This document shows positions 4,791 to 43,977 of a stretch of 64,000 bases of DNA, piece after piece. Every line of letters starts with the position of its first letter. The stretch's first letter is position 1. The DNA comes from Desulfuromonadales bacterium (GTDB lineage Bacteria; Desulfobacterota; Desulfuromonadia; Desulfuromonadales; BM103), in NCBI GenBank assembly GCA_030145205.1, contig JAQYVZ010000022.1:1-64000 (forward strand), written 5' to 3'. A model generated the notes under the pieces. That model had not been told where the DNA came from. It searched no databases and worked only from the letters and a program-made list of their open reading frames with translations. The position numbers and the translations under genes were made by a program.

Positions 4791-5077
4791 TGTCCCGGTC
4801 CATTATGAGATGAAGAGCCGCCCCAGTAACTCTCGGTCAGGTCTTTCAGTATTTTCGATAAGATGCCCAGTATGACTGCGGGGAATCCAGCTGTAGCTGC
4901 CGCAGCTGCGGCACCAACAATCGGGTCTTTCGGCATTGCGTTCCAGTCAACACCAATAAACCAGTTCACCACGAAGTACCAAGCGTGAATGAAAAAAGCA
5001 TAGTAGGTAGCCAGCACCACCCTCGGAATGACCCGGTAACTGTTGAGCAGCTCGGCACCTCGGTCCCAGTTAATCAT
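4787..5077 (-). CDS. Holin candidate, two membrane helices
   Basis: The 96-residue protein has two hydrophobic stretches, about residues 16-42 (aromatic-rich, with YYAFFIHAWYFVVNWFIG) and 53-77 (Ala/Gly/Ile-rich), and a short polar His-containing tail. Size, topology and place directly after the endolysin gene fit a holin that forms the inner-membrane lesion releasing the endolysin. It overlaps both neighbours by 4 bases. Confidence 0.7.
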   Translation of the reverse strand: MINWDRGAELLNSYRVIPRVVLATYYAFFIHAWYFVVNWFIGVDWNAMPKDPIVGAAAAAATAGFPAVILGILSKILKDLTESYWGGSSSHNGPGH

Positions 5078-5514
5078 AGCGAGATCGGCCCCTTGTACTC
5101 AAAGTGTGGCAGGTCATCGAAGTTCTGGTCATCGAGAATCACCTGATCCTCATCCCAGTTGCCGCCCCAGCGTATATCAAAACCAAGCGTTCTCCCAATG
5201 CCAATCACCAGACCAGCCATGTAGATGAAGCGCTTCGCGTCTTTCCAGTCGATCGGGTAAGGCGCGACATCAACGGCAGTAGACAGCCAGCCTTCCATCT
5301 CGTTCCCGGCACGATCATGCGGTGGGTTGTGCTTCGACTCACCCGGCCCGACCTTCGTCTTATTCTGCCGCAGCAGCTCAGCCTGACGGTCCCACGAACG
5401 ACGACCTTCGAGAATCGAGATATCGAATTCCCTGACCACGATCTCCATGACCTTGCCCAGCTCAGGGCAGCACGTGTCCAGCTGCGCTCGTGAGGCTTCT
5501 CCAAATGATGGCAT
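5074..5514 (-). CDS. Endolysin, M15-type peptidoglycan peptidase
   Basis: The 146-residue protein shows the zinc-ligand pattern of the M15 (VanY/L-alanyl-D-glutamate peptidase) family: SKH at residues 60-62, AVDVAP with D82, and LPHFEY with H137. WGGNWD near residues 116-121 is the family's aromatic block. There is no signal peptide, so export would depend on the holin. It should cleave the peptide cross-links of the host wall. It opens the lysis cassette endolysin, holin, small membrane protein, i-spanin, o-spanin. Confidence 0.9.
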   Translation of the reverse strand: MPSFGEASRAQLDTCCPELGKVMEIVVREFDISILEGRRSWDRQAELLRQNKTKVGPGESKHNPPHDRAGNEMEGWLSTAVDVAPYPIDWKDAKRFIYMAGLVIGIGRTLGFDIRWGGNWDEDQVILDDQNFDDLPHFEYKGPISL

Positions 5515-5517
5515 TAG

Positions 5518-8500
5518 TTACTCCAAAGTTTTTGCAAGTGAATTAAGCTGCCGCTCACCCAAGTCGTTATTGACCATTTTCAGCAGCTGAAGAGTATTTG
5601 GAGCGTTATCTTCTAGGCGACGTAGGAACGCTGTTGAGTCGTCCACTCCGAAGTTGTCAATCATGTCGATCACCTGACTGGTCTCAAGAGGACGGTCAGG
5701 GTTGTACTCACCACCCGGTCGCAGCTTCCAACCTTCCTTGAACAGCGTGTTGCGTGTCTCTTCAAGGACATCGATCTCCTTCTGCTTGTCTTTCGGGTCC
5801 ATCTCTTCATCGAGGTGGATGTACTGGATCGCCCGGTTGATCTCCTGAATGTTTTCGCGCACACCCTCAAGCGCACCAGCTGCACGGATATATGGCTCGT
5901 GCTCCTTATGGGTTGCCAGATACTCATCGACATTGCCCAGCTTCTCGTGGAACGACAGCGATCCTTGAATCCTTGTCGTCTTATCGAGCAGCTCGTAGAC
6001 CTCAGTCTCGTACTTGGTCCTGCGCGGTGGGTTCTCACCGCGAACAAACCTGCCAAGCACTGGCACGTCCTGAACTTCCCATGCCGGTGGAGCTGGGTAA
6101 TCGAGCGCACGCTGCGTCACCATGTCTGCGGCTTGCAGCATGTAGCGACCGATGGTGCCGGTGTAGCCTGCGTACAGGTTCTGAAGGTGCAGCGGAGAAG
6201 CAATGTTGCCCTCGCCGTACTTCATCTCAGGCATGAACTTCGCCAGCTCAATCATGGTCGGGCTGGTTCGCGTCCGGTACTGATCCTGCGGCAGTCGCTT
6301 CTGCTCGTAGTAGCTGACGATCGGTCGATCCGTGAAGTAGTTGTGGTTGTTCCTCATCTCACGGACTGGCGCAAATGTCTGCGGGATAGGCGACATCGAG
6401 AAGGTCTGCGCGAGCATGTGCATGTACTCCCGCATCAGCGTCTTGCCAGCATCGCTCTCCTTGTCGTAGGCGTAGTTGAACATCATCTCTGGGATGGTGT
6501 TGAAGATAGCGCCAACCTCGAATGGCTTCGGCAGACGGTAATGCTTGTCGCCAATCCACCAGTGGAAGTAAGCATGACGATCCCACATCTCCAGCGCCTT
6601 GTAACGCTCGTCGTCCTTGAAGGCACCGTACAGTGCCAGCCCAGCCAGACCGATGATCAAGCCCTTCATGGTGAAGGCGACCGGGTGCTCGCGTGCGCCG
6701 CGACCAAGACGGTACATGCCCTGCGCTCGTGCGTTCATGAACGGCACTGTCTGGATCAGGAACTGAACGACAGGCCAGTCGCCACCCATGGAGAAGTCCA
6801 TTAGGTCCTTGGCTTCGTATGCGGCCTGCTTCTTCGACTTGCCAGCTGCAATGGCTGCGTTGTAGATCGCCATGCGGTTGGAGTTCTCGATCGATGAGCC
6901 AAGGTGCTTCCACGCCCTGATCAGTTTCATCGGGGAGTCGAGCACCGTGTTCGTGAAGCTCTTCTTCTTCATGGCAGCTTTCAGCAGCTTCTTCGTCTGA
7001 CGTGGGTCACCACCAGTGATGTACCCGTTCTCAAACGCAGCGCCTGCTCCCACCAAGGTGCGCATGGCTTCGTCTTCCACCAGCGCCTCAGTGAAGCCCT
7101 TGATCGCAGACAGTACCGGCAGGTTGCCATGGTCTCGACCGACAACGAACGCTGAGCCTGTGTCTCGAATGAAGTTGGCAATCATGAACGATGGGTCAAC
7201 CGTGATCAGCGTCGTCAGCAGTCGCTTCGGTGCGCGGAACAGGTTGATCCACTCACCGAAGTGCTTCTTATTGATCGATGACATCGATCGGTACAGAAGC
7301 ATGTCGTCGGTGTAGTAGTACTCACGCTTGCCGTCACGCATTACGCTGATCACACCGTCACCTGATGGTGCCTTCATAGCAAACATCTTCGACATGCCGG
7401 TAAGCGCCTCTTTCGGGATGTCGCTTAGGTGTATGCCTTTTTTGGTGTCTGGAACGATGATGCCCCTGTCGAGCATTACCTTCTTTAGCTGATTCATCGG
7501 AATCATCTCAGGCTTCCAGTCCATCGGCTTTTTGGAAACAATGCCTGAGCCACGTAGCGCATCAACGGCTTCGAGCGCTGCGTTGTTCTTCACAGAGGCA
7601 TCCACCAGCTTGGTGATGTTCATGAGGATGTTGCCCATGATGTCGCCTACCCGCTCATCCTTACCAGTGAGCCTGCGGATCGGAGCACGCTGGTTCGCAA
7701 TACCAGCTGTCGGTGACATGCCAGAACCAGCAAGCCGGTCATCGCCTACCCGATAGAACGGCACATAGTCTGCATTCTCCCAAGTGGGCCTCGACTCAGC
7801 GTCAATAATTCCAGATGACTCACCGAAATCGAGCATCTTCCTGTTGAACTCAGCATAGTCTTTCGCTACCCGCTCGAAGTGCGGGAACTTATCGCCAAGC
7901 CTGATCATCGCCTTGATTTCTTTTGGATCAAACAGGTGCTCCCTGCCCTTGCTGATCAAGTCATTGATCGCTTCAATCGCATCACCGACATCGTTGTTTC
8001 GCGTATTCGCAGCCTGTTTCTTTTCTTCGAGCCGCTTCTTCGCTTCATCGGCAAGGCTCTGGTCGGACATCGCGCTGTCAAGCACACGATCGATCGCAGC
8101 CTCAGCCTCTTCCTTGGTAGCGCCAGCCTCTTCCATCAGGCGCTTAACCCAGTTGTATTTAGTGCGAGCGTAGTTCTTCCCCAGCACCTCACGAGGATCG
8201 ATCTTGCGACCAGTCAGCTTCTTCTTGCGGCGCTTACCGGCACGCCCCGGAACGATAACCTCGTTGATGCGCTTGAGGATCATATCCTTGGCTTTCTTAT
8301 CGACAGCCGATACACCGCTCACTGGTGAGGCAGCAGCTGCTGCAACGGCACCTGTCATTTTCAGGAAGTCGCGACGATTTATGCCTCCACCTTCCTCACG
8401 GTAGCCGTCTAGGTAGGCGAGCAACTCGAACACGTCGCCACCGAAGTGCTTGGCGGCATTGGTAACTAAGCGCTGCTGCTCTGGGTTAAGCTCTGCAAAA

Positions 8501-11500
8501 CCTTCGAGCATCAACCCTTTGGCACGCTTGCCTGCCATGTATAGGCCCCACTGATCAGGGTCGCTCAGGATCGGCTGAAAGATGTCCATCAGTCCCTTGC
8601 CCTTATTCACGACAATGCCGTCTTCCCAGACCGGATAACCGTAGTACAGAACAGCCTTCATCATGGAGTCGAGCGATGTTGTTAGACGTGCGCTCATGTA
8701 TGCGCCCTGATCTTCGCCAGCCTGATTGAGGGCGCGACTCAGCCCATAGAACTGATCGACCATACCTTGAACCGCTTCCGCAGCAATACCTTCCCTGAAC
8801 TGATTGACACGCTTTCTCAGTGGGGTCTTCTTGTAGCCAACCTTCTTCGCTGCCGACTTGAGGTCTGGGTCGCTCTTCGGCTCATAGTGGAACGGCGCAA
8901 CTGGTCCGCTGAACTCTTCGCGCATCTTTTCGTTGATCGGGAAGTACATGACCTTCACGCCCTCGCGATCGCTGCCGTAGTGTTCCTCGATGTAGGTGTT
9001 CAGCCTGTTCTGAGCGTAAGTCTGGTCGGTGAACACATCTTGGATTACCGGACCATTCTTCTCGCTCATGATGACCCAGCCGTGCATCGAGCCGGTCATC
9101 TCAGCCACGTACAGGCGACCATGCTGTTCAGCGATCTGCTCATCACGCTTGGGTGTCTGCATGGTGGGCTGACCCTCTTCTTCCTGAGCCTTGCGCATGT
9201 TGTTAGCTGTGACGTAGGTGTCGGAAATCTGCACACCGTACTTCTTCAGCTCCTTGTTCCACATGCGGACAGTGATGTCCTCATAGGACTTACGAGCACC
9301 AGCGATGCGAGGATTGGTGAACGTCTCCTGATAGTTACCCGATATCCTGCCGCCAACGACAATACGAATCTTGCCACCAGCGAGCTTCTCATCAACCATG
9401 CCACTGGACAGGACATCACCAAGCGGCTCGCCCGTTGGTATCTGATCAGGGTCGGTCTGGGGCGACGGTCTTCCGGCATGACGCAGGTCATTATCGATGG
9501 TCTCATTTACAGCATCGTCGTCTCTGGCAAAGCCCAAGAACTCATTGTTCGACCTGCGGTAGACAGCCTGTACGCTGTCAGCCGTCCTGCCGATGATGTA
9601 GTTGTCGCGCAGGTTGGGTGGACCCATGCTGCCATCTTGCTGCTGGCGACCCATGGTCGGGACTTCGATCTTGCCCTTCTCCTGCATCATGATCGTGCGA
9701 GTAACGTCAGCACCAAGCACTGGCACCATGCTGTTCATGGAGACGACGATCGGCTTATCGGCTTCAGCCCAGCGAATGACGTAGACCTCCTGCTCTTGAC
9801 CGCGAACTCCAAGTGACTCCTTGCTCCATGTAATGCGAGACGTTTCAGTAACGTCCCTCATACCGAACCCACCACGAGTGGCTGATGCCGTTCCGTTGTT
9901 CCACATCACACCGCCGAGACCTCGACGCACTGCGTCTGAGATCAGGAACTTCAGTGCGAGTGGTCGCCACTGCTCATCTTTTGATACAGGGCTTTCGGCA
10001 TACACCCCACCAGTACTCAGTCGCTTCCCAAGCGTGACGCTCTGCTCAAACACCTTGTCCATCTTCTGCGACTCGTCGCTCATCATGGAGAGGTTTTCGA
10101 GGATGTTGCCCTTGACCAGTGCCCAGTTAGGACCTGCCTCAGCTGACTCTGCTGGTGCTACTGCTGCTGGTGCTTCTGCCGGACCAAACGGTGCGCCCGG
10201 TGGTGGCACGATGTTGTTTGAGTTGTAATACTCAACGATCTGGTCGTTCAGACCATCCTTCGCATCACTGAGATCGTACTCGTAGTCGAACTCATCGCCA
10301 TCAATGATAATGTCGTAAGCATCACCGGGATCAGCGGCCTTGATTTTTATCTCGACGTATGAGGTTGGCTCATTGTCTGAGTCCCACCTGATCGGCAGAC
10401 TACCCAAGATCAGTGCAGACTGACCCTTTTCGTGCCACATCTCACGAATCTGCGTGTACACGTCATCCATGAGCGCGTCATCGCTGTACATCTCCGTGCG
10501 GTAATCGTTGCGCTCGTCCTGAAGGGCTTCCTCAGCAGCGTCGTTATCGACTGTGCCGTCCTCATCAATAATCACATTGGCGCGGTAGGTGTCACCCTGT
10601 CGGCTAACACCATCGAAGCTGTCTTCAAGTGCGTCCCAGTCCGACTCGGACATGTTGGAAAATGCCTCATCGACTATCTGTGACTCGATGTCGCCGCGTT
10701 CGTTTTCCTCGAACTGGTAATACGACATCACACCTTCAGCTCGCATCGCATCGCTCTGGTCCTCATCAACATCCTCTTCTTCAAGGGAGTAGAAATCGAC
10801 CAGCTCGCTATAGCTGTAGCTGCCGCTTGCCTCAGTGCCGTCGCTGTCATCGCCACGGTTGAGTCTGTCCTGAGCGATACGACGCTTCTCATCAGCATGG
10901 TTGTCGAACCATGTGTTGATCAGTTTGGGTATCAGGTCCTTGGCTTTATCAACGTCAGCCTTACTGCCAACAACCTTCACATCGATGAAGTCATCACCAG
11001 CCCTCACCGCCCTCATACTCAGAGCGTTAGGCTCGATGTCACCGTGGCGACTGATGCGACTACCTGCGACAATCTCGTTCATCAGAGACGGCGCATCGAA
11101 GCCAGTCATCATTGCTGTGTTCGCGTCCTCAAGAACGGTTCGCGGGATACGAACCGTCGCCATCTCGCGAGTCTTCAGCCCAGACATCAGCTCCGCAATA
11201 CGGGTCTTGTCAGCGCCCATCCTGCCGTATGCCACCTCCAACATCGGAGTCAGCTGGTACTCAAGCATGGGCATACGCAGACCCTCACCGTAGTCAGCGT
11301 TGCTTGCTACTGATTGCAGGTTCCTGCCGATCTCGCGCTGCATCTCATTTACATTTGCAAGCAGCTGTGTCCGGGTTTCTGCATAACGAAGCGTGTTGTG
11401 AATTGAACTTATAGCTCGATCAAGGTCACTGATTAGTGCGTTGGCAACCACTCTCGAAGCCATGGCATCGAGAATCTCGAAGCCGCGAATATCCAGCGTT

Positions 11501-14500
11501 CCCGGTGCAGAGAGTGAACTCGGCAGGTTGTCGCGGAACTCGATCACTCCGTCACGTGCGTCCTGAATCAGTTCGCGTACATTGTCCAGCTTCCTAACCG
11601 TGAATGACTTCCATGACTCACGCTTCTGGTCAAGCGTCAGGTCTGCCCATAGCTGCCCACGATCCTCGCGTACCCAGTTCTCCATCTCACCCTGCATTGA
11701 CCCACCAGACGGTGTATCTGGCGTGCCATCGGTGAGGTTCAGGATTGGCTTGAACTCTTTCTCAAGTACGTTCCAGATGTCAGCTGCGACACCCTTACCG
11801 AAGCTATCTCCCACCATGGAGAGCAGGCGACGATTCTCTTTGTACTGCTTGTCAGCTGCATCCTTTTCGTCGCGTGAAGAGAAACCCTTGCGGAGCGCCT
11901 GCAACCAGTCTGACTGCAACTCAATGAGCGAGAGCATCTTGCCCTGCATTTCCGGGTTCGGGAACTCAAGCTCTGGCATCCCGCTCCAGTCGAGCAGCTC
12001 AGCCATGCCTGTGCGGATGTGCATGACGTTCTGGTCGTAGTGACCTGTGTAGCCCATGTCACCGTCGCGCCCCTCGCTCTTGATGAGCATGACGCGGAAG
12101 TCCTGATTAACCCTTGATCCCTGCGGCGACCACTCCGAGTACTCGGTCGTGTGCCCTGCCCAGTCGAACCATCGATCCATTGCCTTGTCGTAGCCGATGT
12201 CGTAGCCACGCTTAGCAGTCTTCGCGACCTCATCCTTGATCATCTGCTTCTGAAGGTCAGTGAGGTTGTCTATCTCTTCCTGAGTCAGGTCACCAAACAG
12301 TCTCTTCCGCGCCTGCGTGTTGTTCAGTGCCGGGTTCCGACCCTGCTTCTCAACGAAGATGCGGTAGGCATTCTCTGACAGCATGTGTGCCATCATCAGC
12401 TCTTTCGTCAACTTCGTTTTCTTCTGGTCCATCTTCTGCGACATGATCTCTGCGATGCGTGCTCGCATGAGTTCTTCGCTGACCTTGTTCTTTGATGGTC
12501 GAGATGGGAATGTCCACCGCTGATCCTCGCCATAACCATCTACAGCGGTCGGCTTCAGCGGACCTGCGATGAAGTTTGCCTCCATCGCATCATTGATCTG
12601 GTCAAGCTCTGCTGCAATGTGCGCAGGCAGGATGCCCTGATACCAGCGAGACGGCATGAAGTTGCCGTGCATCTGGTTCATGTAGCGTTCGAGCGTGCCG
12701 TAGGTGCCATCAGTGAACAGGTTGAAGCCTGACTTGTCACTCAGGCCGGACAGCTCAGCCTCGCGAGCCGTCATGTACTTCTCTTTCTGCGCCTTGATGA
12801 TCAGCTGCTTCCAACCGTTCGGCGTAGTCGAGTCAGGGAACATCGGCACTTCGTCCGGCACGTTCTCCTTGCCACCGTACTGCTTCGCCAGCTCATTCTT
12901 CTCGCGGTTGTTCGGCTTGTAGGTTGCCGTCTGCATCGCCGTGATAAACCCAGCTTGGAAGATGTCGCGGTCGCGCATCCACGGCTTAGTGGTGTCCTCA
13001 AGTGGGTTCCACTCGAAGCCATCACCATGGCGCACGAAGTCTCGCGATCTTGACAGCAGGTCCTGCACGCGATCATCGTTCCAGAACTGCTCGCGGCTCT
13101 CATGCAGCGTGATCATCTTCTTGACCGGCGCGAAGCGATCCATCTTGCGACGAACCATGATGCTCTTAATCCATGCGACGAACCTTGCCCATGCGCTGCG
13201 CTGCTTCGGTGTGGTGAACTTGTATTCGCCGGACTTCACCTTACCAGCGATGTACGCAACCATCTCTTCACCGAGTAGCTGCTTCTGGTCAGGCTTGGTC
13301 TTGTCGAGTCCCAGCTGCACCGCATAATTGTCAGCGAGCCGTGGGAAAGCATCGACCAGATTGTGCATCTCTACACGCAGGTCAGCCTCATAACCGAACA
13401 TGCCACGCACGCCGTAGTGACCGATCATCTCGTGCCAGATGGTCTCGACTACGTTGCTCTCGAAGCCACCGCTCTTCACGTTACCCGGAATGTTGGCTGG
13501 GAAGATGAAGATGCCGTTCTCAGGGTTGATGTGGTCCATGTAGCCACGCACACCATTCATGATTCCGTTGCCGCCCATGGCTATCAGCTCGTCCCTGATC
13601 TGCTGAGCGACCTCTGGGAAGTCACGCTTCAGCTCTTCGACGCTCTCCACAATGTGAATGTCGGGCAGGTTGTCCATATCCTTGGTCAGCTGCGCCCTGA
13701 CGTACTCAGTCTTGAGCAGCTCGTCCACGGTTGCCGATGCCTCGATCTGCGGCATGAACGGCATCGATGGGCTGTAGTTCAGCTCTGGGTTGTCCTGTAC
13801 CCACCAAGGATTGACAGGCTCGTACTCGAAGTCATCAGCGAGGTCTGCGTACCACTGACCGTTCTTACCAAGGTGACCGATGTTGATGTCGATCAGCGTC
13901 TGCGGGAACGTCTCTCGACCCGGCTGCGCGTACTCAGCATCACCTGTCAGCCAAGCAAGGTCGGCTGGGTTCAGCGTCTTCTCGACAATCAGGTGATTAC
14001 TCTTCGGGTTGAACAGGAAGCTGCGGCCCTGAATGTTCGCCCTGATGCGCGGACGACCGCGCCTGTTCGAGACATTGGTAACCACACCCTGCGCTGCACC
14101 GTCAGGTGTCAGTATCTCGATGCTGTCGCCACGCTCAACCATGTCCTTGACGCGGCTCCAGTAGCGCGGCAGGTTGCCGCCCTCACCGCTGTCCATGTTG
14201 AACAAGCCCTGCTGGGCACGGTGACGATAGGTTGCTGCCTTCTTCTTACGGCTGGCGACGATACCTCGTTGCTGCCGATCCTGCTTCATCTCCAGCGACT
14301 GAGCATCGGCCTGCTCGTAGGTCTCACCCTTGCCCCATGTGATCTGCGGCGTGACAACATCCTCGCCTGCAACAATCTCGGTCTCGCTCAGTTCAGCTGC
14401 CGCTGCCTGCAATGCAGCCTCCAGCGCCTCCTGAGAGGCTCCAGTTACCGCGAACTCATCGCCGCCCAACCGGAAGACCTCTACGCCCTTCTGTTTCGCC

Positions 14501-17500
14501 AGAGCGTCTGAGACAGCCACCAGCAGCCGATCACCAGCTGAGTGGGACATGTTGTCGTTGACCCATGCCAGAGAGTCCACGTCGATCGCTGCGACGGCTG
14601 GCTGTGCCGTTTCCGGGGCAGGTCTCTTTTCTACTGCTACCGATCCCGGCGGCGGCGGCGGTCCTCTGCCATCCTCGTCCTCTGTCCATGGCGGCTTGCC
14701 ATATCGGTCGCGAACATCGATGTTCTCCTGACGCTCATTGAATGCCCTGCGGTTCTGTGCGCCAGTCAGGTTATCTTGGAACAGCATCTGCTCCCTCTCG
14801 ACCGGACCAGCTGATTCAATCAGGTCTCGCTTCACGAGGTTCTCAGGCTGACGACGCTCCTTGCCGGTGTAACCCTTGTCGAGACGGCCCTGTAGTCCAC
14901 GTGCCTGACGATTGAGTTCCTTGATGGCACGTCTACCCTTCGGGGTGACCACGAGCTTGTCAGTCGTCTTGGTGCGTCTGGCGTAGCCCTCCTTGATCAG
15001 CGTCTCTTCCATCGCTGGGTCAACAGCCTCAAGGTTCTGCACTGCCTCAATTCCACCGCTCATGGCGTTCAGGTCTTCGAGCTTGACGATCTCTTCGTTG
15101 ACCTTCCGTTGCAGTTCGGCGCGGTCCTGTAGTACCTGCTTCTCAGCCTGCTGAAGTTTGGTTGCTGTAGTGCGCTTCGACCTCGCTACAGCAATATCGG
15201 TCTTCATCGCGTTAGCACGCATCACCAAGCGGTTGAGCATCTTGATCTCAGTCTCTGCGGTACGACCGCCCTGCTTCTCAAGAAACGCACGCATTGCTGG
15301 TTCGGCTTTCAGGATGGCATCAGCTTCAGCCTTTTGCTTTTGTTCGAGCTGATTCAGCTCCTTGAGTCGGTCCATCGGTGTCGTGTTAGCGATGTGCTCA
15401 GGGTCTGAAATCTTGGCCTCAAACTTGAAGCGCTCATTGGTCTTCTCCATGAAGTCCGCTGTCGCTCTGGCAGCTGCTACGTCTTCCTTCTTCACGCCAA
15501 CCGGCGCGTCAGGCTCAAGCGCAGCCATCATGCCGAACGGACCAGAGATCAGGGCACCACCACCGAACGCCTCGATGTATCGGTTGGGGTCATCGTAGAT
15601 TGGATTATCAGGATCAATCGGGCGCACTGCCGCTTCGGTCTGCATCATCTCCATGACTTCTTGCAGACCCTCAGTGACCGGCTCACCGACCGCACCAACG
15701 GTACGACGCATCCCGGTATTTGACTGCACCATGCGACCAGCTGCGCTCTTACCCATCAGCCTGTTCATGGGACCGCCAGTCAGCATGGTGACTACGGCTG
15801 CGGTGTTACCGGCGTGACTCGCCTTCTCCTGTGACATGACCTGCTTCGCATCTTCTGGTGTCATGCCAGCCTCAACCATCTGGTTGAAGGTGTCGTTTTT
15901 CTCCCAGATTTCCAGCGGGATTTGTTCGAGCACACCGCGAGTTTCCTGCTCAAGGTGTTCCTTGACAAGGATGCCCTCGGTTGCACCGCCAGCCAACATA
16001 CCGCCACGACCAGCTGCTGCCGTGCGTGCTTTATCCATAGCAGACACAGTGAGTCCGTATGACTCCCTCGCAGACGCACGAGCGGCCCAGCCGCCAGCGC
16101 CACGAGTAACCGCAAAGCTCAAGCCAAGCTCAGGCGCGTTCTCTGCGAACATCAGGAACAGTGACTCAGGATTGTTGAGCTTTGTGTTTGGGTCGCTGAT
16201 TGATTCTTTCACCAACGGGTACAAGTCGAGCAGGTTCTTCATCTCGACGTTCTCGGTAAAGATAGGCATCTCGCGCTCAGCCAGCTGCTCTTCGTCGTAG
16301 TACTTATCGATGAAGCCTTTCGAGAACTCGGTCGCATGTGTCGCTGGAGACTTACCTGTCATCCGCTGCGCGAGCGGCAAGATAAAGCCCTCATACAAAC
16401 CATTACCCCTCTTCGCGTCTGACTCCCAATCACGCATCGCTACCGATGCGCCGGGAAATGCAGGCTCACGCTTTCCGGCGTAATCAATTCCTTCATAAGA
16501 ACCCGGACCAGTAAGCGCACCACCGGGGTCGTCTGCGCCAAATGGATTGAGCATGTGACCACCGGGTGTCCACGCTCCACCAACCCTGTTGAGCAGTCGA
16601 GCGCCAAACTCCTTGCGTTCTTCCCACCACTCATCGCCTGCGATATCCCTGAACGCCAGATCGTTTTCTGGGTTCATGTCGATCCACTCTTTGAGCTTGC
16701 GTGAATCGATGTCGCCGGGGTCAATGTCCCTTCCGTACTCTTCGCGAGCGAGCTGCATGATGCGATTTTGCTCTGCTTCAGGCAGGCCCTTATCACCGGT
16801 CAGAAGGAATCGCTGGAAGTTGTTGTTGCGCTCAATGTCAGCTTCAGCACTGGAGAGCGCGGCACCAGCAATGCGTGTTGATCCGTAGCCAGTCGCACCA
16901 ACCGTGGCACGTGTGGTCGAGCCACGCTTATCCATTCGGTCCATCTGCTCAGGCGACATCGCTGACCAGCGGACCCTACCTGTCTTAGGATCAACTAGCG
17001 CCTGCTGCTGCAAGCTGTTTACCGCACTGGCACCGTACTTGGTGTTCTCGTTTCTGGATATGAACTCGTTCCACTGCTCTCGGTTCGGCCTGTTTGCCGG
17101 GTCCTTGAGTAGCTCCATGTCATGTTCGTACTGACGCTGAGCCATATCGCGCTCACGAGCCATCTGCTGTTCACCAGCTTGTGCGTACTCTTCTGGGGTC
17201 CACGGCTTATCCGCTGACGGCTTCCTCACCTTTGGCTGCGCGAACGACCCATTCCTGTTGCTCAGGGCGCGATCGATCTCAGCGTCAGTAGACGGCTCAG
17301 CAAGAGCAGGACCGCCCATCTGAATGGGGTCCTGATCCATGTGTTGTGGCAATGCTGCGTTGGTCGGTCGAAGCCCCTCTTGCTCCAAGCTGGAGTCGAG
17401 CTGTGCTCTGATTTCGTCTTGTCTCGCCTTTAATACATCAACAGCTTGCTGGTCGCCTGCGGCATTGGCACCATCTATCGCTCGCTGGATTTCCTCGATT

Positions 17501-17514
17501 GTGGGTGTTGACAT
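5518..17514 (-). CDS. Giant polyvalent virion protein (3998 aa) with GGDEF and metallopeptidase domains
   Basis: Parts seen in order: an N-terminal helical region; hydrophobic Gly/Ala-rich segments around residues 450-660; coiled coil (about 720-800); a winged-helix-like stretch just before 900; a GGDEF domain from about 910 (DNLTGAQNRRAF, IDVDSLAWVND, then GGDEF at 1017-1021) with a proline-rich insert near 950; a zinc metallopeptidase (HEMIGH at 1361-1366 with GEE at 1415-1417); an LIELQSDW block near 1862; a very acidic stretch (about 2220-2360); WRPLALKF near 2514 and ELKKYGVQI near 2755; a Tat-like RRDFLK at 3047-3052; and an LPD38-like segment (about 3425-3800) with KPFEVGAIFNTIPE and a membrane helix near 3620. 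Such proteins travel in the virion and are injected, acting on the host at once. No N4-type virion RNA polymerase motifs were seen. Virion location is inferred from family and position among tail genes. Confidence 0.85.
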   Translation of the reverse strand: MSTPTIEEIQRAIDGANAAGDQQAVDVLKARQDEIRAQLDSSLEQEGLRPTNAALPQHMDQDPIQMGGPALAEPSTDAEIDRALSNRNGSFAQPKVRKPSADKPWTPEEYAQAGEQQMARERDMAQRQYEHDMELLKDPANRPNREQWNEFISRNENTKYGASAVNSLQQQALVDPKTGRVRWSAMSPEQMDRMDKRGSTTRATVGATGYGSTRIAGAALSSAEADIERNNNFQRFLLTGDKGLPEAEQNRIMQLAREEYGRDIDPGDIDSRKLKEWIDMNPENDLAFRDIAGDEWWEERKEFGARLLNRVGGAWTPGGHMLNPFGADDPGGALTGPGSYEGIDYAGKREPAFPGASVAMRDWESDAKRGNGLYEGFILPLAQRMTGKSPATHATEFSKGFIDKYYDEEQLAEREMPIFTENVEMKNLLDLYPLVKESISDPNTKLNNPESLFLMFAENAPELGLSFAVTRGAGGWAARASARESYGLTVSAMDKARTAAAGRGGMLAGGATEGILVKEHLEQETRGVLEQIPLEIWEKNDTFNQMVEAGMTPEDAKQVMSQEKASHAGNTAAVVTMLTGGPMNRLMGKSAAGRMVQSNTGMRRTVGAVGEPVTEGLQEVMEMMQTEAAVRPIDPDNPIYDDPNRYIEAFGGGALISGPFGMMAALEPDAPVGVKKEDVAAARATADFMEKTNERFKFEAKISDPEHIANTTPMDRLKELNQLEQKQKAEADAILKAEPAMRAFLEKQGGRTAETEIKMLNRLVMRANAMKTDIAVARSKRTTATKLQQAEKQVLQDRAELQRKVNEEIVKLEDLNAMSGGIEAVQNLEAVDPAMEETLIKEGYARRTKTTDKLVVTPKGRRAIKELNRQARGLQGRLDKGYTGKERRQPENLVKRDLIESAGPVEREQMLFQDNLTGAQNRRAFNERQENIDVRDRYGKPPWTEDEDGRGPPPPPGSVAVEKRPAPETAQPAVAAIDVDSLAWVNDNMSHSAGDRLLVAVSDALAKQKGVEVFRLGGDEFAVTGASQEALEAALQAAAAELSETEIVAGEDVVTPQITWGKGETYEQADAQSLEMKQDRQQRGIVASRKKKAATYRHRAQQGLFNMDSGEGGNLPRYWSRVKDMVERGDSIEILTPDGAAQGVVTNVSNRRGRPRIRANIQGRSFLFNPKSNHLIVEKTLNPADLAWLTGDAEYAQPGRETFPQTLIDINIGHLGKNGQWYADLADDFEYEPVNPWWVQDNPELNYSPSMPFMPQIEASATVDELLKTEYVRAQLTKDMDNLPDIHIVESVEELKRDFPEVAQQIRDELIAMGGNGIMNGVRGYMDHINPENGIFIFPANIPGNVKSGGFESNVVETIWHEMIGHYGVRGMFGYEADLRVEMHNLVDAFPRLADNYAVQLGLDKTKPDQKQLLGEEMVAYIAGKVKSGEYKFTTPKQRSAWARFVAWIKSIMVRRKMDRFAPVKKMITLHESREQFWNDDRVQDLLSRSRDFVRHGDGFEWNPLEDTTKPWMRDRDIFQAGFITAMQTATYKPNNREKNELAKQYGGKENVPDEVPMFPDSTTPNGWKQLIIKAQKEKYMTAREAELSGLSDKSGFNLFTDGTYGTLERYMNQMHGNFMPSRWYQGILPAHIAAELDQINDAMEANFIAGPLKPTAVDGYGEDQRWTFPSRPSKNKVSEELMRARIAEIMSQKMDQKKTKLTKELMMAHMLSENAYRIFVEKQGRNPALNNTQARKRLFGDLTQEEIDNLTDLQKQMIKDEVAKTAKRGYDIGYDKAMDRWFDWAGHTTEYSEWSPQGSRVNQDFRVMLIKSEGRDGDMGYTGHYDQNVMHIRTGMAELLDWSGMPELEFPNPEMQGKMLSLIELQSDWLQALRKGFSSRDEKDAADKQYKENRRLLSMVGDSFGKGVAADIWNVLEKEFKPILNLTDGTPDTPSGGSMQGEMENWVREDRGQLWADLTLDQKRESWKSFTVRKLDNVRELIQDARDGVIEFRDNLPSSLSAPGTLDIRGFEILDAMASRVVANALISDLDRAISSIHNTLRYAETRTQLLANVNEMQREIGRNLQSVASNADYGEGLRMPMLEYQLTPMLEVAYGRMGADKTRIAELMSGLKTREMATVRIPRTVLEDANTAMMTGFDAPSLMNEIVAGSRISRHGDIEPNALSMRAVRAGDDFIDVKVVGSKADVDKAKDLIPKLINTWFDNHADEKRRIAQDRLNRGDDSDGTEASGSYSYSELVDFYSLEEEDVDEDQSDAMRAEGVMSYYQFEENERGDIESQIVDEAFSNMSESDWDALEDSFDGVSRQGDTYRANVIIDEDGTVDNDAAEEALQDERNDYRTEMYSDDALMDDVYTQIREMWHEKGQSALILGSLPIRWDSDNEPTSYVEIKIKAADPGDAYDIIIDGDEFDYEYDLSDAKDGLNDQIVEYYNSNNIVPPPGAPFGPAEAPAAVAPAESAEAGPNWALVKGNILENLSMMSDESQKMDKVFEQSVTLGKRLSTGGVYAESPVSKDEQWRPLALKFLISDAVRRGLGGVMWNNGTASATRGGFGMRDVTETSRITWSKESLGVRGQEQEVYVIRWAEADKPIVVSMNSMVPVLGADVTRTIMMQEKGKIEVPTMGRQQQDGSMGPPNLRDNYIIGRTADSVQAVYRRSNNEFLGFARDDDAVNETIDNDLRHAGRPSPQTDPDQIPTGEPLGDVLSSGMVDEKLAGGKIRIVVGGRISGNYQETFTNPRIAGARKSYEDITVRMWNKELKKYGVQISDTYVTANNMRKAQEEEGQPTMQTPKRDEQIAEQHGRLYVAEMTGSMHGWVIMSEKNGPVIQDVFTDQTYAQNRLNTYIEEHYGSDREGVKVMYFPINEKMREEFSGPVAPFHYEPKSDPDLKSAAKKVGYKKTPLRKRVNQFREGIAAEAVQGMVDQFYGLSRALNQAGEDQGAYMSARLTTSLDSMMKAVLYYGYPVWEDGIVVNKGKGLMDIFQPILSDPDQWGLYMAGKRAKGLMLEGFAELNPEQQRLVTNAAKHFGGDVFELLAYLDGYREEGGGINRRDFLKMTGAVAAAAASPVSGVSAVDKKAKDMILKRINEVIVPGRAGKRRKKKLTGRKIDPREVLGKNYARTKYNWVKRLMEEAGATKEEAEAAIDRVLDSAMSDQSLADEAKKRLEEKKQAANTRNNDVGDAIEAINDLISKGREHLFDPKEIKAMIRLGDKFPHFERVAKDYAEFNRKMLDFGESSGIIDAESRPTWENADYVPFYRVGDDRLAGSGMSPTAGIANQRAPIRRLTGKDERVGDIMGNILMNITKLVDASVKNNAALEAVDALRGSGIVSKKPMDWKPEMIPMNQLKKVMLDRGIIVPDTKKGIHLSDIPKEALTGMSKMFAMKAPSGDGVISVMRDGKREYYYTDDMLLYRSMSSINKKHFGEWINLFRAPKRLLTTLITVDPSFMIANFIRDTGSAFVVGRDHGNLPVLSAIKGFTEALVEDEAMRTLVGAGAAFENGYITGGDPRQTKKLLKAAMKKKSFTNTVLDSPMKLIRAWKHLGSSIENSNRMAIYNAAIAAGKSKKQAAYEAKDLMDFSMGGDWPVVQFLIQTVPFMNARAQGMYRLGRGAREHPVAFTMKGLIIGLAGLALYGAFKDDERYKALEMWDRHAYFHWWIGDKHYRLPKPFEVGAIFNTIPEMMFNYAYDKESDAGKTLMREYMHMLAQTFSMSPIPQTFAPVREMRNNHNYFTDRPIVSYYEQKRLPQDQYRTRTSPTMIELAKFMPEMKYGEGNIASPLHLQNLYAGYTGTIGRYMLQAADMVTQRALDYPAPPAWEVQDVPVLGRFVRGENPPRRTKYETEVYELLDKTTRIQGSLSFHEKLGNVDEYLATHKEHEPYIRAAGALEGVRENIQEINRAIQYIHLDEEMDPKDKQKEIDVLEETRNTLFKEGWKLRPGGEYNPDRPLETSQVIDMIDNFGVDDSTAFLRRLEDNAPNTLQLLKMVNNDLGERQLNSLAKTLE

Positions 17515-17526
17515 TTCGCTCTCATG

Positions 17527-18516: not shown

Positions 18517-19277
18517 TTGTCACCTCCAGCTGGTGCTGGTATGCGTTCAACTTCCTGTGGCTGGCTTTCCATTTTCTTCATCTTCTTGTTGCCACGGTAC
18601 TCCATGAGCTTCTCGCCTTCATACGTCTCCAGTGAGATGCGCTTCCGGGCCTTTGCCAGAATCTTCGCCAAGTCATCTTGGCTCTCCGCGCCCTGCACCT
18701 GAGCCATAGTCATTGCCATGCGCATGGTCGCAGTGTCTTCGTCAGTGATCCCGGTCCTTACCTCTTCTTGCAGCTGCTGCTGCATGGGCTTGTACACGAT
18801 GCCCTCGACAGCCCTGTCTTGTTCCTCACGAGTGTTACCGATACCCAACGCCTCATTCATTTTCACACCGATACGACGAACCTCTTCCGGGTCCATTTTC
18901 GCTTGACTGCCGGTCCTGTGTGACGCTGCATTCGCGGCCCTGCCGATCATATCGAGGCTCTTCATGGAGCCAAGCTCCTTGATGTTCTTGCTCCAGTATT
19001 CGGTAGGCGTGCCACGGTCCTGCACAAGGTCCATTTTGTTTTGAGAATCAGCACCCGCACCAGCCTGTTGATCTGGTGCTGCATTGGACAGGGGTGCGCC
19101 AATGTTCGCACTACCACTACCGGGTGATGCGGGTGCCAAAGCTGGACCCTGCCCCTGCGATTGAGGGACAGGAGTAGTCGGTGGAGCACCAGTGATCGAC
19201 TGTGGTTGCCCAGCCAAGGCTGGTGATCCGGTTTCGTTCGGTACTGCTGGCAGTGTGCCGATCAGTGGGTCTTTCAT
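18513..19277 (-). CDS. Putative virion protein with a Pro/Ala/Gly-rich N-terminus
   Basis: The first 90 of 254 residues are low-complexity Pro, Ala, Gly, Ser and Gln. The rest is helical, with Met/Gln-rich stretches (TATMRMAMTMAQVQGAES) and a charged C-terminus. It overlaps both neighbours by 4 bases, so it is co-translated with the other putative internal proteins. A structural or ejected role is inferred from position only. Confidence 0.6.
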   Translation of the reverse strand: MKDPLIGTLPAVPNETGSPALAGQPQSITGAPPTTPVPQSQGQGPALAPASPGSGSANIGAPLSNAAPDQQAGAGADSQNKMDLVQDRGTPTEYWSKNIKELGSMKSLDMIGRAANAASHRTGSQAKMDPEEVRRIGVKMNEALGIGNTREEQDRAVEGIVYKPMQQQLQEEVRTGITDEDTATMRMAMTMAQVQGAESQDDLAKILAKARKRISLETYEGEKLMEYRGNKKMKKMESQPQEVERIPAPAGGDK

Positions 19278-20353
19278 GAGTCACCTCCAAAGAGGCTGGG
19301 GTAATCGACAATCAGGAAGCCGTCTGGACCGACAGTACTGATGTCAGGGTTCTCTTGAGCAATGACACCGAAGTTCGGACCAGCGATGCCAAGCGCGATT
19401 GCAATCGGCTTCCACGTCCACGTGTAGAAGCGTCTGCCCATTCCGGTGAACAGGTACGTGATGTTGTCTTTCAGATTCTCATCACTACCGTATGCCGATG
19501 CCACAATGCTGGCGATAGCGCCGACCACCTCAGCGGTGTTGTCCTTCTTGACCACCGTCTCGCCTGTCTGCGTAGTCGTGTAGGAACCCTTTGTTCCCTC
19601 AAGCGCGGACACGACCCCCATCAGCTGTCGGAAATCCCAGTCTCGCTCTTCTACGAACTGCTGCCAGTTAAAGTCGAGCATCGCCTGCTGCACGCCACGA
19701 TCTGTAGCGCCGGTTGTCATCAGCGTGGAGATGTCGGTCTGGGATGCGTCGATCGCTGCCCCACCAAGCTGTTGGAATCGACCGGCTGCTTCCATGTCGC
19801 GTGCCCGTTCTTGTCCGAACTGGTTCGCGCTCCACTCGTAGGCTTGGGCGTAGCCCTTGCCATACAGGTCACTGATGCCCTGAAGCGTCTTCTCGGTGTT
19901 CTCAGAGCGCATGAGAGCCGCCCTACTGCCGCCGAAAGCATCCATGGATGAAGCCCTGCTATCGAGTGCGTTTGCACCCATAGCGCCTGCCTCTCGTATC
20001 TCTCGCGCCGCAGGATCGAGTGCGCCCTTGATATACGGGTTCATCCACTTTTCTTGGTCCGCATCGGCCCATGAAGTTGCGCCACGATCCGCGTACATCT
20101 CAGCCTTGTCGAAATACGGCTGACCAATACCTACATTGTCACGAGCCATGGACACGCCCATCTGCTCGTTCTCAGATAGACCTGCGACACGATCACCTGT
20201 GTACTGCTCGTGCTCTGTTGTTCCAATGCGACGACCAATCTGGTTCGCTAGTTGAGCATTACTCTCAACCCACTTTGGCGGTGTGTAGGTGTTCTTGGTC
20301 GTCTTCTTTTGCTTGCCTCCCACTGGCTTCACTCCTGATGAAGTCACCTCCAA
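19274..20353 (-). CDS. Putative virion protein with an S74-like C-terminal motif
   Basis: The frame opens with TTG at 20353, and GTG codons at 20332 or 20323 are possible starts; the last has AGGAG eight bases upstream. The body is polar and helical. The final 70 residues begin SDENLKDNI, then YTWTWKP, then NFGVIAQE and a closing VDYPSL. That order resembles the Peptidase S74 chaperone domain (SDxxLKxNI ... AQE). It is shorter than usual. In S74 proteins this part folds a trimer and cuts itself off. Here it may be a remnant. The 5' end overlaps the acetyltransferase gene by up to 89 bases. Confidence 0.65.
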   Translation of the reverse strand: MEVTSSGVKPVGGKQKKTTKNTYTPPKWVESNAQLANQIGRRIGTTEHEQYTGDRVAGLSENEQMGVSMARDNVGIGQPYFDKAEMYADRGATSWADADQEKWMNPYIKGALDPAAREIREAGAMGANALDSRASSMDAFGGSRAALMRSENTEKTLQGISDLYGKGYAQAYEWSANQFGQERARDMEAAGRFQQLGGAAIDASQTDISTLMTTGATDRGVQQAMLDFNWQQFVEERDWDFRQLMGVVSALEGTKGSYTTTQTGETVVKKDNTAEVVGAIASIVASAYGSDENLKDNITYLFTGMGRRFYTWTWKPIAIALGIAGPNFGVIAQENPDISTVGPDGFLIVDYPSLFGGDS

Positions 20354-20774: not shown

Positions 20775-20775
20775 T

Positions 20776-20901: not shown

Positions 20902-20910
20902 GATCTTCCC

Positions 20911-21081: not shown

Positions 21082-21090
21082 ATTCTTCTC

Positions 21091-37597: not shown

Positions 37598-38512
37598 TTA
37601 CGTGCTGCCAGAGCTTCCGAATGCACCTCGGTAGTCAGACCAGCCGAACGAGTAGCGTTCACGCGCCTTGTAGCGCATGTTGCCTGTCTCAAAGTCACCT
37701 TCGAGACCACGTTGGATGTTCTTCCTGACCATGTGCTTCAGACCGTCCTGCTGGTCCGTGATCAGCGTCCACTGATTCGGGTCCGTCAGGCGATGGTTCT
37801 TGTGGCAACCACCGGGGATCATGCCCATCTTCTTCATGGCATTGATGTCGTTGTCAGCCGTGCCGGGACGGTACGGAGACATCAACAGACGTTCTGCCAC
37901 AAACATCAGATCGGGCGGCACGATCAGCTTCTGCGCACGTACAGCAATCGGGATAGACCGCTCGTCCACGAACTTGCTGATTGCAATCATCGCTTCCTCA
38001 AGGGAAGTTTCAGACAGGTCAGCCTGTGTCGTAAACGTATTGGCCTGCGTCCCACCACCGTAAAGCGGATGAGCAGTACTGAACAGCTCGACACCATCAC
38101 CACCCGGATAGGCAGCGGTGAAGCCGTTGTTCAGGATTGCCGCACCTTTCACTTCTTTGGTGTGCTGCATAGAGCGAGCAAGAGCCTTGGAGTACTTCGA
38201 GCCGATGGAGCCGTAGAGGTTGTCCTCTTCAGCTTCTTCCGTCAGCGAGAAGGCCAGTGCGATAGTCTCGTGGACATACCGGCTGACGAACGCTTCGCCA
38301 CCCTGATCATAAGTGACCGGGGCACCTTCAGCCTTGACTGGAGCACCAGCCAGACCAGCGAGCAGTACGTCTTCCTCGTATGCTTTCTGAGAGTTTTCGA
38401 CTGCGAAAATAGGTCTCCATTCCTGCTCGTAGCGCTTGTATTCCAAGCCGAACACGGTGTTGAGACCTTCCTGTAGCTGCTTTCTAAAGCGAGCGCGATT
38501 CATGATAGCCAT
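37598..38512 (-). CDS. Major capsid protein
   Basis: The 304-residue protein resembles the Mu gpT/HK97-fold head subunit family: FSLTEEAEEDNLYGSIG, then FSTAHPLYGGGTQANT, and a C-terminal region with IAVRAQKLIVPPDLMFVAERLL and TLITDQQDGLKH. Position also fits: a scaffold-like gene and a decoration-like gene lie upstream, and portal and terminase further up the same transcript. No protease domain is fused. The downstream hairpin may keep its transcript abundant. Confidence 0.8.
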   Translation of the reverse strand: MAIMNRARFRKQLQEGLNTVFGLEYKRYEQEWRPIFAVENSQKAYEEDVLLAGLAGAPVKAEGAPVTYDQGGEAFVSRYVHETIALAFSLTEEAEEDNLYGSIGSKYSKALARSMQHTKEVKGAAILNNGFTAAYPGGDGVELFSTAHPLYGGGTQANTFTTQADLSETSLEEAMIAISKFVDERSIPIAVRAQKLIVPPDLMFVAERLLMSPYRPGTADNDINAMKKMGMIPGGCHKNHRLTDPNQWTLITDQQDGLKHMVRKNIQRGLEGDFETGNMRYKARERYSFGWSDYRGAFGSSGST

Positions 38513-41401: not shown

Positions 41402-41570
41402 TTTTCAGTTTCCTTGTTGCTACGCCTGCCAGTTTATCGAGCAGTGTTGAGTAGGTTGCGCCGGTCTCCTGTGCGGAACGGGCGAATTGTCGAGGGGATA
41501 CACCACGAACTCCCCGCTTACGCAGGAACTCGCGTGCTGCACGCACATCTTTCGGTTTAATTTGTGCCAC
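41385..41570 (-). CDS. Small basic protein overlapping the portal gene
   Basis: I prefer the GTG at 41570 with AAAGG upstream, giving 61 residues; the frame is open to 41657 inside the portal gene. The product is basic (RAAREFLRKRGVRGVSPRQFARSAQ) with a helix-turn-helix-like spacing in its second half, not convincing enough to name. Its end overlaps the next gene. Confidence 0.45.
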   Translation of the reverse strand: MAQIKPKDVRAAREFLRKRGVRGVSPRQFARSAQETGATYSTLLDKLAGVATRKLKNANDT

Positions 41571-43977
41571 TCGGTCGTGCCTTTTTCGTTTGCGCAGCTT
41601 TTGCCGCTGCCAGCTTGTTGTCTCGTTCGATCTTGGCTTGGTTGGCTCGTTCTTCACGAATCTCCTTCCGCTTCGCCATGAAATCGTTGCGCTGCTCTGA
41701 ACTCATCGCAGCCATCTCCTGACGCTCAATGTCAGCCAGTGTTGCCTCGTCCTTGCGTGCCTGCTCGCGCATGTGCGCGTCGTCCTTCCTGCGCTCATCA
41801 GCCTCGAAGCCTTCCTCCATCTCATTCATGGACATGCTTGGGTCCATGATCTCTATCTGCGGCACCTGAGCTGCGGCCTGTGCGATCTGCATCTCCATCT
41901 GCGGATCAAGCGGCTGCTCTGGTGAGAACGATCCCGGTGGCGGCAACTGCCCACCCATCTGCTTGTTCATCTCGACCCAGTACTTGAAGCTAAGGTGCTG
42001 AGCGATATGCGCCTGCATGATCGGCCCCAGCTGCTCCAGTGCTTCCGGCAGCAAGCCGTTGACGAAGTTCATGTGGACCTGAATGTGTGCGTCGTGATCC
42101 TGATCTGGGAACGCATTCGCTGACTGACCCTGCATCATCTGCATGTTCTCAGTGATCGGGTCGAGACGCATCGGCTCTTCTTTCTGCAAGCACTGCTCGT
42201 AGTCAGGGATGCGGATGGCTCGCAGGAAGCGCTCATGGCACTCCATCTGGTTGTAGAGCTGCGGGTGCGAGTCAGCCAGCTCGATCAGTGCCTGACCCTG
42301 AGCGATCCTCTGCGTCGAGCTGAAGATGTTCGGGTCACTGATCGGGATGATATCGACACGTCCGTCATAGTCCTGCCTGAGCACGACTGATTCAGCGTCT
42401 TGTACCTTGTAAGGGTACTGGTCCGGCAGGAACTCATAGTTGAGTTCAGCGCGGAGCTTGAACTCTTCTGCCGCCGCCATGTGAAGGCGACGATGGATGG
42501 CAGAGAACGGTTTGGAGCCTTGTTCTATGAGAGCGATGGTTGTACCCACCGGACCAGTATTTGATGCCTCGCCTGTCAACACTTCGGTTGAAGCCGAGAA
42601 TGATTTGCCTGCCTCAAGTAGCACCTCGAACAGCTTGGCAAGTGCTGGGCTTGGGTCCTTGAACGGTGGCGTGTAGAAGGCGCGGTTCAGCTCTTCTGCC
42701 GTCATGTTCACTTCTTTGTACAGTCCCGGCTCGATGTGCTCGTCACCCGGCTTCATCTTCGCGTCACTGGACACGTAGCCGCCCTGCATGTTGGCGAAGG
42801 CAGCTGAGTCCAGCAGCGCCCTGATCGTGCCTGACGTAGCCTCAGCTACACTGCCGACGAGATGCAGCAGACCGAAGCCGTAGAAGCCAAGACCCGGCAG
42901 GTACTTGTAGTGCGTAAACCAGATGCGCTTCTGCATCCTCTCATCGTCTTCTTTCCAGTTGCGCCTGATGGAAAGAATCTCTCGCGTGCTGCGCTCGATG
43001 GTGACGATGTATGGCAGTGGTGAGTTGCGACTGTAGCGCTCCTGATCAGCATCCAGCATCAGGTCACAATGACACTCGTAGACGGTGTACACGTTGTCAT
43101 CGCTGTGCATCTCAGGCTGACGTGAGTCCGCTTGGTCACGGTCCTGATGTTCACGATCGTCCGCTGCATCTGAGGTGTACGGTGTGGAGTCAGGTAGCTC
43201 GATCTCTTCCCAGAAGCCTGTCTCGAACAGCTTCCTCATCTCGCTGTTGTTCTTGAACATGCGATGCGTGTAGCGCGGCGCACTGGCAAGGTCGGTCGCA
43301 ATGTACGGCACGATGAAGTCAGGTGACTGGATGTAGCGACTAACCACCATGTCACTCACTGAGTCGTAGTAGGTCTTCTTGAATGCCGAACCAGCCAGCG
43401 GCAAGTAGAACAACATCTGGTCCACCTGCCAGAAGTAGGACCTATCCTGATCCAGTATCTGGTAGTTCATGTGATTCTTGATGCGCTCGGCCTGCTCTTC
43501 CTTCTCGCGAGTCATCTCACCAACGATCTTGGTCTTGACCGGACCTTCACTGGGAAATACCTCTTCGATGGCACGCGCTTGGAATTGCACGACCGCCTCC
43601 CCGATGAGTGGATACGTCACTGCACTCGCACCATCGAAGGGTAGTTCTTCACCGGGTATGTTACGCAGGCCCAATAGCTCCATGGCTTGGTCCATGCGAG
43701 CTTCCCAATCCTTACGAGCCTCAAGGTCAACGTCCACCCACTCACAGATGTTGTTCGCTAAGTCAGCCTGCTCCTGCCTGCTGAGGTCGAACATGATGTT
43801 GGCTGCGTGCTCATCGCTGTCATCCTGTGACATACGGTTCGCGCCGGGGTTGAAGTCAACCACCGCCCTCTCGCCGCGCCGCTGCACGCTGGCATCGCCC
43901 ACCATGCCAGTGAATCCCTCGTCCTCGACCGGCATCTCAGCTGCTCGTGGTGCGTCATCCTCAAATCGTTTTGCCAT
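41557..43977 (-). CDS. Portal protein
   Basis: The 806-residue protein has the hallmarks of the large portal family of short-tailed phages: ELPFDGASAVTYPLIGEAVVQF, then QMLFYLPLAGSAFKKTYYD, the conserved long helix region, TGPVGTTIALIEQGSK and VVLRQDYDGRVDIIPISDPN. A long charged C-terminal helix (about residues 700-800) forms the barrel expected for DNA entry. The portal is the dodecameric channel at the capsid vertex. It overlaps terminase by one base. Confidence 0.85.
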   Translation of the reverse strand: MAKRFEDDAPRAAEMPVEDEGFTGMVGDASVQRRGERAVVDFNPGANRMSQDDSDEHAANIMFDLSRQEQADLANNICEWVDVDLEARKDWEARMDQAMELLGLRNIPGEELPFDGASAVTYPLIGEAVVQFQARAIEEVFPSEGPVKTKIVGEMTREKEEQAERIKNHMNYQILDQDRSYFWQVDQMLFYLPLAGSAFKKTYYDSVSDMVVSRYIQSPDFIVPYIATDLASAPRYTHRMFKNNSEMRKLFETGFWEEIELPDSTPYTSDAADDREHQDRDQADSRQPEMHSDDNVYTVYECHCDLMLDADQERYSRNSPLPYIVTIERSTREILSIRRNWKEDDERMQKRIWFTHYKYLPGLGFYGFGLLHLVGSVAEATSGTIRALLDSAAFANMQGGYVSSDAKMKPGDEHIEPGLYKEVNMTAEELNRAFYTPPFKDPSPALAKLFEVLLEAGKSFSASTEVLTGEASNTGPVGTTIALIEQGSKPFSAIHRRLHMAAAEEFKLRAELNYEFLPDQYPYKVQDAESVVLRQDYDGRVDIIPISDPNIFSSTQRIAQGQALIELADSHPQLYNQMECHERFLRAIRIPDYEQCLQKEEPMRLDPITENMQMMQGQSANAFPDQDHDAHIQVHMNFVNGLLPEALEQLGPIMQAHIAQHLSFKYWVEMNKQMGGQLPPPGSFSPEQPLDPQMEMQIAQAAAQVPQIEIMDPSMSMNEMEEGFEADERRKDDAHMREQARKDEATLADIERQEMAAMSSEQRNDFMAKRKEIREERANQAKIERDNKLAAAKAAQTKKARPSGTN

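Follow-up and report, generated by a model that had tools for sequence, protein, structure and literature searches.

A conserved GGDEF domain and a zincin-like domain in a giant phage-type polyvalent protein

What is a domain of second-messenger signaling doing inside a phage protein of 3998 residues, and what is it doing there next to a peptidase? The question is raised by an open reading frame (positions 17514 to 5518, minus strand; ATG start, no internal stop) in the window, by which we mean the whole analyzed stretch of 64,000 nucleotides, nearly all of a 64,954-base contig (C134) in an assembly of 3.7 Mb and 317 contigs. An earlier note on this DNA read the product as an injected protein with a diguanylate cyclase that might raise or lower cyclic di-GMP (c-di-GMP) in the host, or sense it, and a zinc protease acting on host proteins. 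The motifs from which that reading set out are in place: DNLTGAQNRRAF at residue 914, IDVDSLAWVND at 977, GGDEF at 1017, HEMIGH at 1361 and GEE at 1415.

A giant protein at the end of a virion gene block

The contig is that of a tailed phage. Its minus strand carries genes for the terminase large subunit (43977..45689), portal protein (41557..43977) and major capsid protein (37598..38512), and the contig also has an endolysin gene, tail-fiber-family matches and two tRNA-Arg genes. The giant gene lies at the end of this virion block, directly before the endolysin gene (5074..5514, minus strand; phrog_465, E 7.2e-29). Upstream of it, still within the block, the product of 19274..20353 (minus strand) matches PHROG 4287, named "DNA ejection protein"; it also has a weak C-terminal match, under the Pfam cut-off, to the S74 chaperone, and is therefore possibly a tail or fiber protein. 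No exact terminal repeat of 16 to 1000 bases was found in the contig, and the phage collection holds no DNA-level relative of positions 5000-25000.

(Three side observations on the neighborhood: a GNAT acetyltransferase gene sits amid the virion genes at 20265-20774; the tRNA-Arg pair, at 58607-58683 and 58767-58843 with anticodons CCT and TCT, adjoins the terminase small subunit gene; and two proteins encoded at 51651-52292 and 55338-56255, upstream of the terminase and portal genes, match tail-fiber/collagen-like PHROG families.)

The protein itself is a very long multidomain chain of unrelated activities. All of its modules being encoded on the minus strand, they are, from the N-terminus: a segment matching positions 370-743 of PHROG 10089, DarB-like antirestriction (14947..16122, residues 465-856; E 6.5e-14); the GGDEF domain (14257..14799, residues about 906-1086), identified by Pfam, by a model with its fold match, and by alignment; a zincin-like metallopeptidase domain (13105..13737, residues about 1260-1470), identified by alignment, a model and weak zincin fold matches; and LPD38, a large polyvalent protein associated domain (6055..6612, residues 3635-3820; Pfam E 3.2e-40). 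Pfam finds in it no EAL or HD-GYP domain, no SWI2/SNF2 ATPase, adenine methylase, ART or inorganic pyrophosphatase (InPase) domain, and no match to a known sensor or receiver domain. The chain, LPD38 and the location in the virion block support its assignment to the phage-type polyvalent proteins, which are packaged and injected; its own packaging is presumed.

The LPD38 region belongs to a C-terminal block that recurs in giant proteins of other phages. Those of Escherichia phage PTXU04 (Xuquatrovirus), Vibrio phage 1.232.O and Aeromonas phage phiARM81mr, which are about 2200-3300 aa long, are 31-35% identical to the window protein over the C-terminal 740 or so residues; each has an HEXXXH motif and is encoded late in the virion block. 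They differ in lacking a GGDEF motif and in giving no BLAST match before residue 2882 of the window protein at E 1e-4. One of the C-terminal homologs is annotated as a putative virion structural protein, and the 1.232.O protein as an adenine methylase.

A stretch resembling a twin-arginine signal, NRRDFLKMTGAVAAAAASP, is also found inside the giant protein (8329-8382, residues 3045-3062; Pfam E 2.7e-6). As a functional part it was set aside because it is missing from four aligned orthologs; the region is otherwise very variable.

The GGDEF domain: fold and conservation

The GGDEF domain is genuine, by sequence family and by fold. Pfam GGDEF (PF00990) matches residues 970-1065 (E 1.4e-7; 31.9 bits against a curated cut-off of 23.8), the motif lying at 14452..14466 on the minus strand (residues 1017-1021), and forty-seven solved sequences match the region at E up to 1, headed by the diguanylate cyclase DosC (E 9.3e-7). 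Fold prediction, set beforehand as the test of the assignment, returned a GGDEF fold: the AlphaFold2 model of residues 885-1110, built on 18 sequences, has a mean pLDDT of 85.5 (at least 93 in every ten-residue block from model residue 91 to 200) and matches solved diguanylate cyclases at Foldseek E 1.3e-10. The best solved match is DgcR (6zxb; Z 18.0, rmsd 2.0 Å over 145 residues); solved GGDEF proteins score Z 15-18, PleD with GTP-alpha-S (2v0n) standing at 16.4. The GGDEF domains of FimX and DosP are not known to be cyclases, and these proteins are in the same list at Z 16.8 and 16.0, so the fold alone does not show activity. A proline-rich insertion of 24 residues within the domain (14632..14703, minus strand; about residues 938-961) is missing from two orthologs (L009 and L011) in the alignment.

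Few regions are as well conserved as the core of this domain in five full-length orthologs (the window protein, L009, L011, L053 and L054; L010, identical to L009, was dropped), which share 54-66% pairwise identity. Invariant columns make up 60.7% of the core (residues 974-1095), a level equalled by 1.3% of 122-residue stretches, against 34.4% of the whole; they make up 51.1% of residues 3200-3950, which include LPD38, and 30.8% of the zincin region (residues 1260-1470), slightly below the overall value. Invariance so far above the average of the protein marks the domain, as read from these aligned sequences, as one kept by strong selection and no relic.

The active site

Are the residues of a diguanylate cyclase there? 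They can be followed through 21 aligned domains, that of the window among them; four (L033 to L036) are from contigs of bacterial assemblies and not from viral ones, and two of the 21, L031 and L035, are 91% alike. (A technical note: L019, the same as L018, L026, a copy of L027, and L032, which ends before the motif, were dropped, and L053, L054 and L056 were added.) D978, N986, G1018, E1020, F1021, K1077 and R1080 are the same in every row, and Asp stands at 995 in 20 of 21. We take D978 and E1020 to be the counterparts of the metal residues D327 and E371 of PleD, N986 and D995 those of its guanine contacts N335 and D344, and K1077 that of the phosphate-contacting K442; on this numbering the metal and guanine positions are all matched. 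PleD R446 would, by simple counting, presumably fall at residue 1081, so that the second phosphate contact is at best shifted by one residue, to the invariant Arg at 1080.

The earlier note had claimed all key residues for this domain. That holds for most of the GTP site, which is intact and conserved, and fails at two places: residue 983, where DxDxxK usually has its Lys, is Ala in the window protein and in two of its orthologs (Lys in 17, Ala in three and Gly in one of the 21), and residue 1081 is Gln. At the start of the motif, G is replaced by Ser in 14 of the 21 rows and by Ala in two, the five orthologs of the window clade keeping GGDEF; one row (L036) has Ala at the third position. One other row, L034, is alone among the 21 in having Asn for the second guanine-contacting Asp (GN for GD), and a change of substrate is possible there.

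Part of this invariance was selected for. Two of the searches that supplied loci used patterns covering parts of D-x-D-S-L-x-W-x-N-D, and the constancy of D978 and D980 (and, for one search, of N986 and D987) is consequently in part built in; E1020, G1018, K1077, R1080 and D995 lie outside the patterns, and L053, L054 and L056 came from the zincin search instead.

Set beside the diguanylate cyclases DgcR, SiaD and PleD, the window domain shares the fold and most catalytic residues; it differs in its Ala at 983, in having no match to a known sensor or receiver domain, and in lacking the RxxD inhibitory site before the motif, Q1008 and V1011 standing at the expected places (located by counting). 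The absence of RxxD makes sensing of c-di-GMP through an I-site less likely, and the absence of EAL and HD-GYP matches does the same for the proposal that c-di-GMP is lowered.

Judged by its residues, the domain has been retained and is probably catalytic. The alternative that survives best is that it binds GTP or c-di-GMP, or only dimerizes, and serves the ejected protein in regulation or structure without catalysis. Ala at 983 and Gln where R446 would fall are what one might expect in that case; strong conservation by itself is no proof of catalysis, and non-catalytic GGDEF domains have the same fold. Against this, the metal-binding Asp and Glu, invariant in all 21 rows, go beyond the usual need of binding alone (the search patterns account in part for the constancy of D978 and D980, but not for that of E1020 and K1077), and a domain meant to bind the product would be doing so without RxxD. 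We consider the alternative unlikely, though to be reckoned with.

Relatives, and the company they keep

Where does this domain come from? In a tree of 19 phage-type and eight host GGDEF domains, a single branch, supported at 100/100, separates the phage-type domains from the host ones, and a smaller tree with three host rows splits identically (99/98); the phage rows were gathered for mutual resemblance, and the host rows are the eight best-scoring of 18 other GGDEFs in the assembly (L034 and L036, with long branches, were left out). Recent capture from the host is unlikely in view of this separation from eight of the 18. The host domains have a DxDxFK-like stretch where the phage family has DSLKW. 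The 18 other GGDEF matches and four EAL matches mean that a c-di-GMP network is present in the assembly, if the contig belongs there. A link to plasmids was also considered: 83 plasmid records match the domain, and among the matches listed, the best 25 of the 83, most are annotated as ordinary GGDEF, EAL or HD proteins.

Fourteen further ORFs with a GGDEF domain, drawn from viral contigs and genome contigs, were compared, the window clade and three proteins of standalone type being set aside. All have the Pfam GGDEF match by which they were selected, and nine also have InPase (eight of 13 if L026, the copy of L027, is left out), which precedes GGDEF in L022, L024, L029, L032 and L033 and follows it in L025, L026, L027 and L028. 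(In L056, InPase, GGDEF and zincin are joined in a single chain.) A pyrophosphatase would suit an enzyme with pyrophosphate as a by-product, yet it is common in phages anyway and absent from the window protein: InPase is found in 449 phage records and GGDEF of this type in 53, of 50,697 (each list counted by itself). As proof of catalysis the pairing was accordingly downgraded. In the phylum, InPase was found in five of 395 genomes; ten loci from pyrophosphatase searches, five of them under 3.5 kb, yielded GGDEF only in L040, the contig of the query itself.

The domain also exists by itself. In the phage collection it is matched by 47 records (39 from Pseudomonas phages and eight from Bordetella phages, totals that include GenBank and RefSeq duplicates). 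In the four that were opened, three of Yuavirus and one of Vojvodinavirus, it is a separate reading frame, annotated in three (MP1412, PaSz-4 and FP1) as a gene of 156 aa. These compact homologs are 36-39% identical to the window domain and have the same metal, guanine and Lys positions; they differ from it in their motif (SGDEF or AGDEF) and in being free-standing genes outside the virion genes, whereas the window domain is part of a giant protein. The standalone gene adjoins an antirestriction gene, in one case named KlcA, in three of the four records, but not in the fourth.

One compact phage-type lineage occurs in three settings: upstream of HEXXXH zincins; beside a pyrophosphatase, which may come before or after it; and, in Yuavirus, as a lone gene neighboring antirestriction genes. 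The description of this lineage is apparently new in the literature searched; in open-licence papers, among the matches listed, neither a pyrophosphatase pairing nor an antirestriction neighborhood of GGDEF was found, nor a test of a polyvalent-protein GGDEF. Such settings point to a function in phage-host conflict.

A lineage so set apart might have acquired a chemistry of its own, the domain being an active nucleotidyltransferase with a substrate or product peculiar to the phage family, for example a linear or mixed dinucleotide. The split from the eight host domains, DSLKW in place of DxDxFK-like stretches, the antirestriction neighbors of standalone relatives and SGDEF in 14 of the 21 aligned domains, on account of which the family could have drifted to another product, can all be read that way. 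The GGDEF enzymes known to make mixed products change the second guanine-contacting residue. Here both guanine contacts are kept, N986 in every row and D995 in all but one, and we think another product rather improbable.

The zincin-like domain

The elements of the note's zinc protease motif are present: HEMIGH (13417..13434, minus strand; residues 1361-1366) and a downstream GEE (13264..13272, minus strand; residues 1415-1417), a candidate for the third zinc ligand. The spacing is HEXXXH, with three residues between E and H, not HEXXH. The sequence runs from HEXXXH through YGVRG to LGEEMVAY. Across seven aligned proteins, H, E, H, G, R and EE do not vary. The model (mean pLDDT 81.9) has a helix, three short strands and C-terminal helices, in the order described for the HEXXXH group. 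Its top solved matches are zincins, but weak ones (Foldseek E 0.41 and Z 8.6 at best; Z 6.7 to PPEP-3 and 3.8 to ArdC of plasmid R388). In the highest-Z rows the model aligns to the N-terminal part of the top protein, and in the next rows to its C-terminal part, which we take to be the catalytic one. No relative of residues 1139-1505 was found in the phage collection at E 1e-5.

Elsewhere, 23 zincin loci were found (L051 and L052 being the same). Eight of them carry GGDEF, always upstream of the zincin: the orthologs L009-L011, the contigs of L024 and L029, and the new L053, L054 and L056. The other 15 have no GGDEF match in the DNA examined; within this set, then, the two domains often go together but need not.

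The pairing has a precedent. A giant Acetonema longum prophage protein (WP_004096050.1) with GGDEF, zincin, ATPase, methylase and ART domains is described in the parts of Iyer et al. 2017 (PMC5512222) available to us; likened by its described domains, it has in common with the window protein a GGDEF domain and a zincin-like metallopeptidase in a giant phage-type chain, and differs in its SWI2/SNF2 ATPase, adenine methylase and ART, none of which Pfam finds here. The same source sets out an HEXXXH subset of zincins in polyvalent proteins, to which the window domain can be likened by description (HEXXXH, a downstream Glu, N-terminal helix, three strands, C-terminal helices), and proposes that they cut the giant chain; of the GGDEF it suggests interference with host nucleotide responses or action against rival elements. 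The combination is therefore not unprecedented, and the giant GGDEF-zincin prophage protein, the HEXXXH subset and both proposed roles, nucleotide signaling and self-processing, are already known. As to the notion of a protease directed at host proteins, autoprocessing is favored there and is the simpler reading, host targets being left possible. A Bordetella siphovirus study (PMC8471281) reports the phage GGDEF gene and lysogens with more biofilm, the parts seen containing no test of the gene itself; in the parts seen of a jumbo-phage survey (PMC7824862), the one point touching GGDEF is a citation of that 2017 paper.

How the protein might work

The activity, delivery and purpose of the window protein we infer. 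The explanation that we prefer, an injected polyvalent protein with a self-cleaving zincin and a c-di-GMP-making GGDEF domain, is offered tentatively: taken as a whole, it falls somewhat short of an even chance. The protein would be a late product that is loaded into the capsid and expelled from it together with the DNA. Whether still in the head or once inside the cell, the HEXXXH zincin would most probably cut the giant chain and thereby release its N-terminal part. The GGDEF domain, to judge from its conserved residues, would pair with a second copy and form c-di-GMP from two GTP in the freshly infected host, as a cyclase that, lacking RxxD, would be without the usual self-shutoff. The rise of c-di-GMP would precede phage transcription; low motility and fewer exposed pili might follow, which could limit superinfection, or, alternatively, a nucleotide-signaling defense might be disturbed.

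Some things count against this explanation: cyclase activity takes two domains together, and of so large a protein (~440 kDa) perhaps only a handful of molecules get into each cell; and the window protein is without the pyrophosphatase that accompanies GGDEF in nine of the 14 relatives. That the protein is not injected at all, working late in the producing cell, or that its GGDEF part is removed ahead of packaging and stays behind, would have a parallel in phage P1, whose DdrB undergoes processing before it is packaged (Iyer et al. 2017, PMC5512222, in the parts available); but LPD38, the DarB-like module and the gene's place closing the virion block make this very improbable.

If a second-messenger synthase is indeed delivered by the virion, host signaling would be changed before any phage gene is transcribed. 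A signaling role for the GGDEF of polyvalent proteins was suggested in 2017 (Iyer et al., PMC5512222, again in the parts available); with the strong conservation, and with standalone relatives of 156 aa in phages that can be cultured on Pseudomonas aeruginosa PAO1, the idea can be put to a direct test. One can extend it, doubtfully, to the phages at large: tailed phages may own a compact, feedback-free lineage of diguanylate cyclases, delivered by the virion in self-cleaving giant proteins and often accompanied by a pyrophosphatase that drives the reaction, which would set the host's second messenger in the first minutes of infection as an anti-defense or superinfection-exclusion device.
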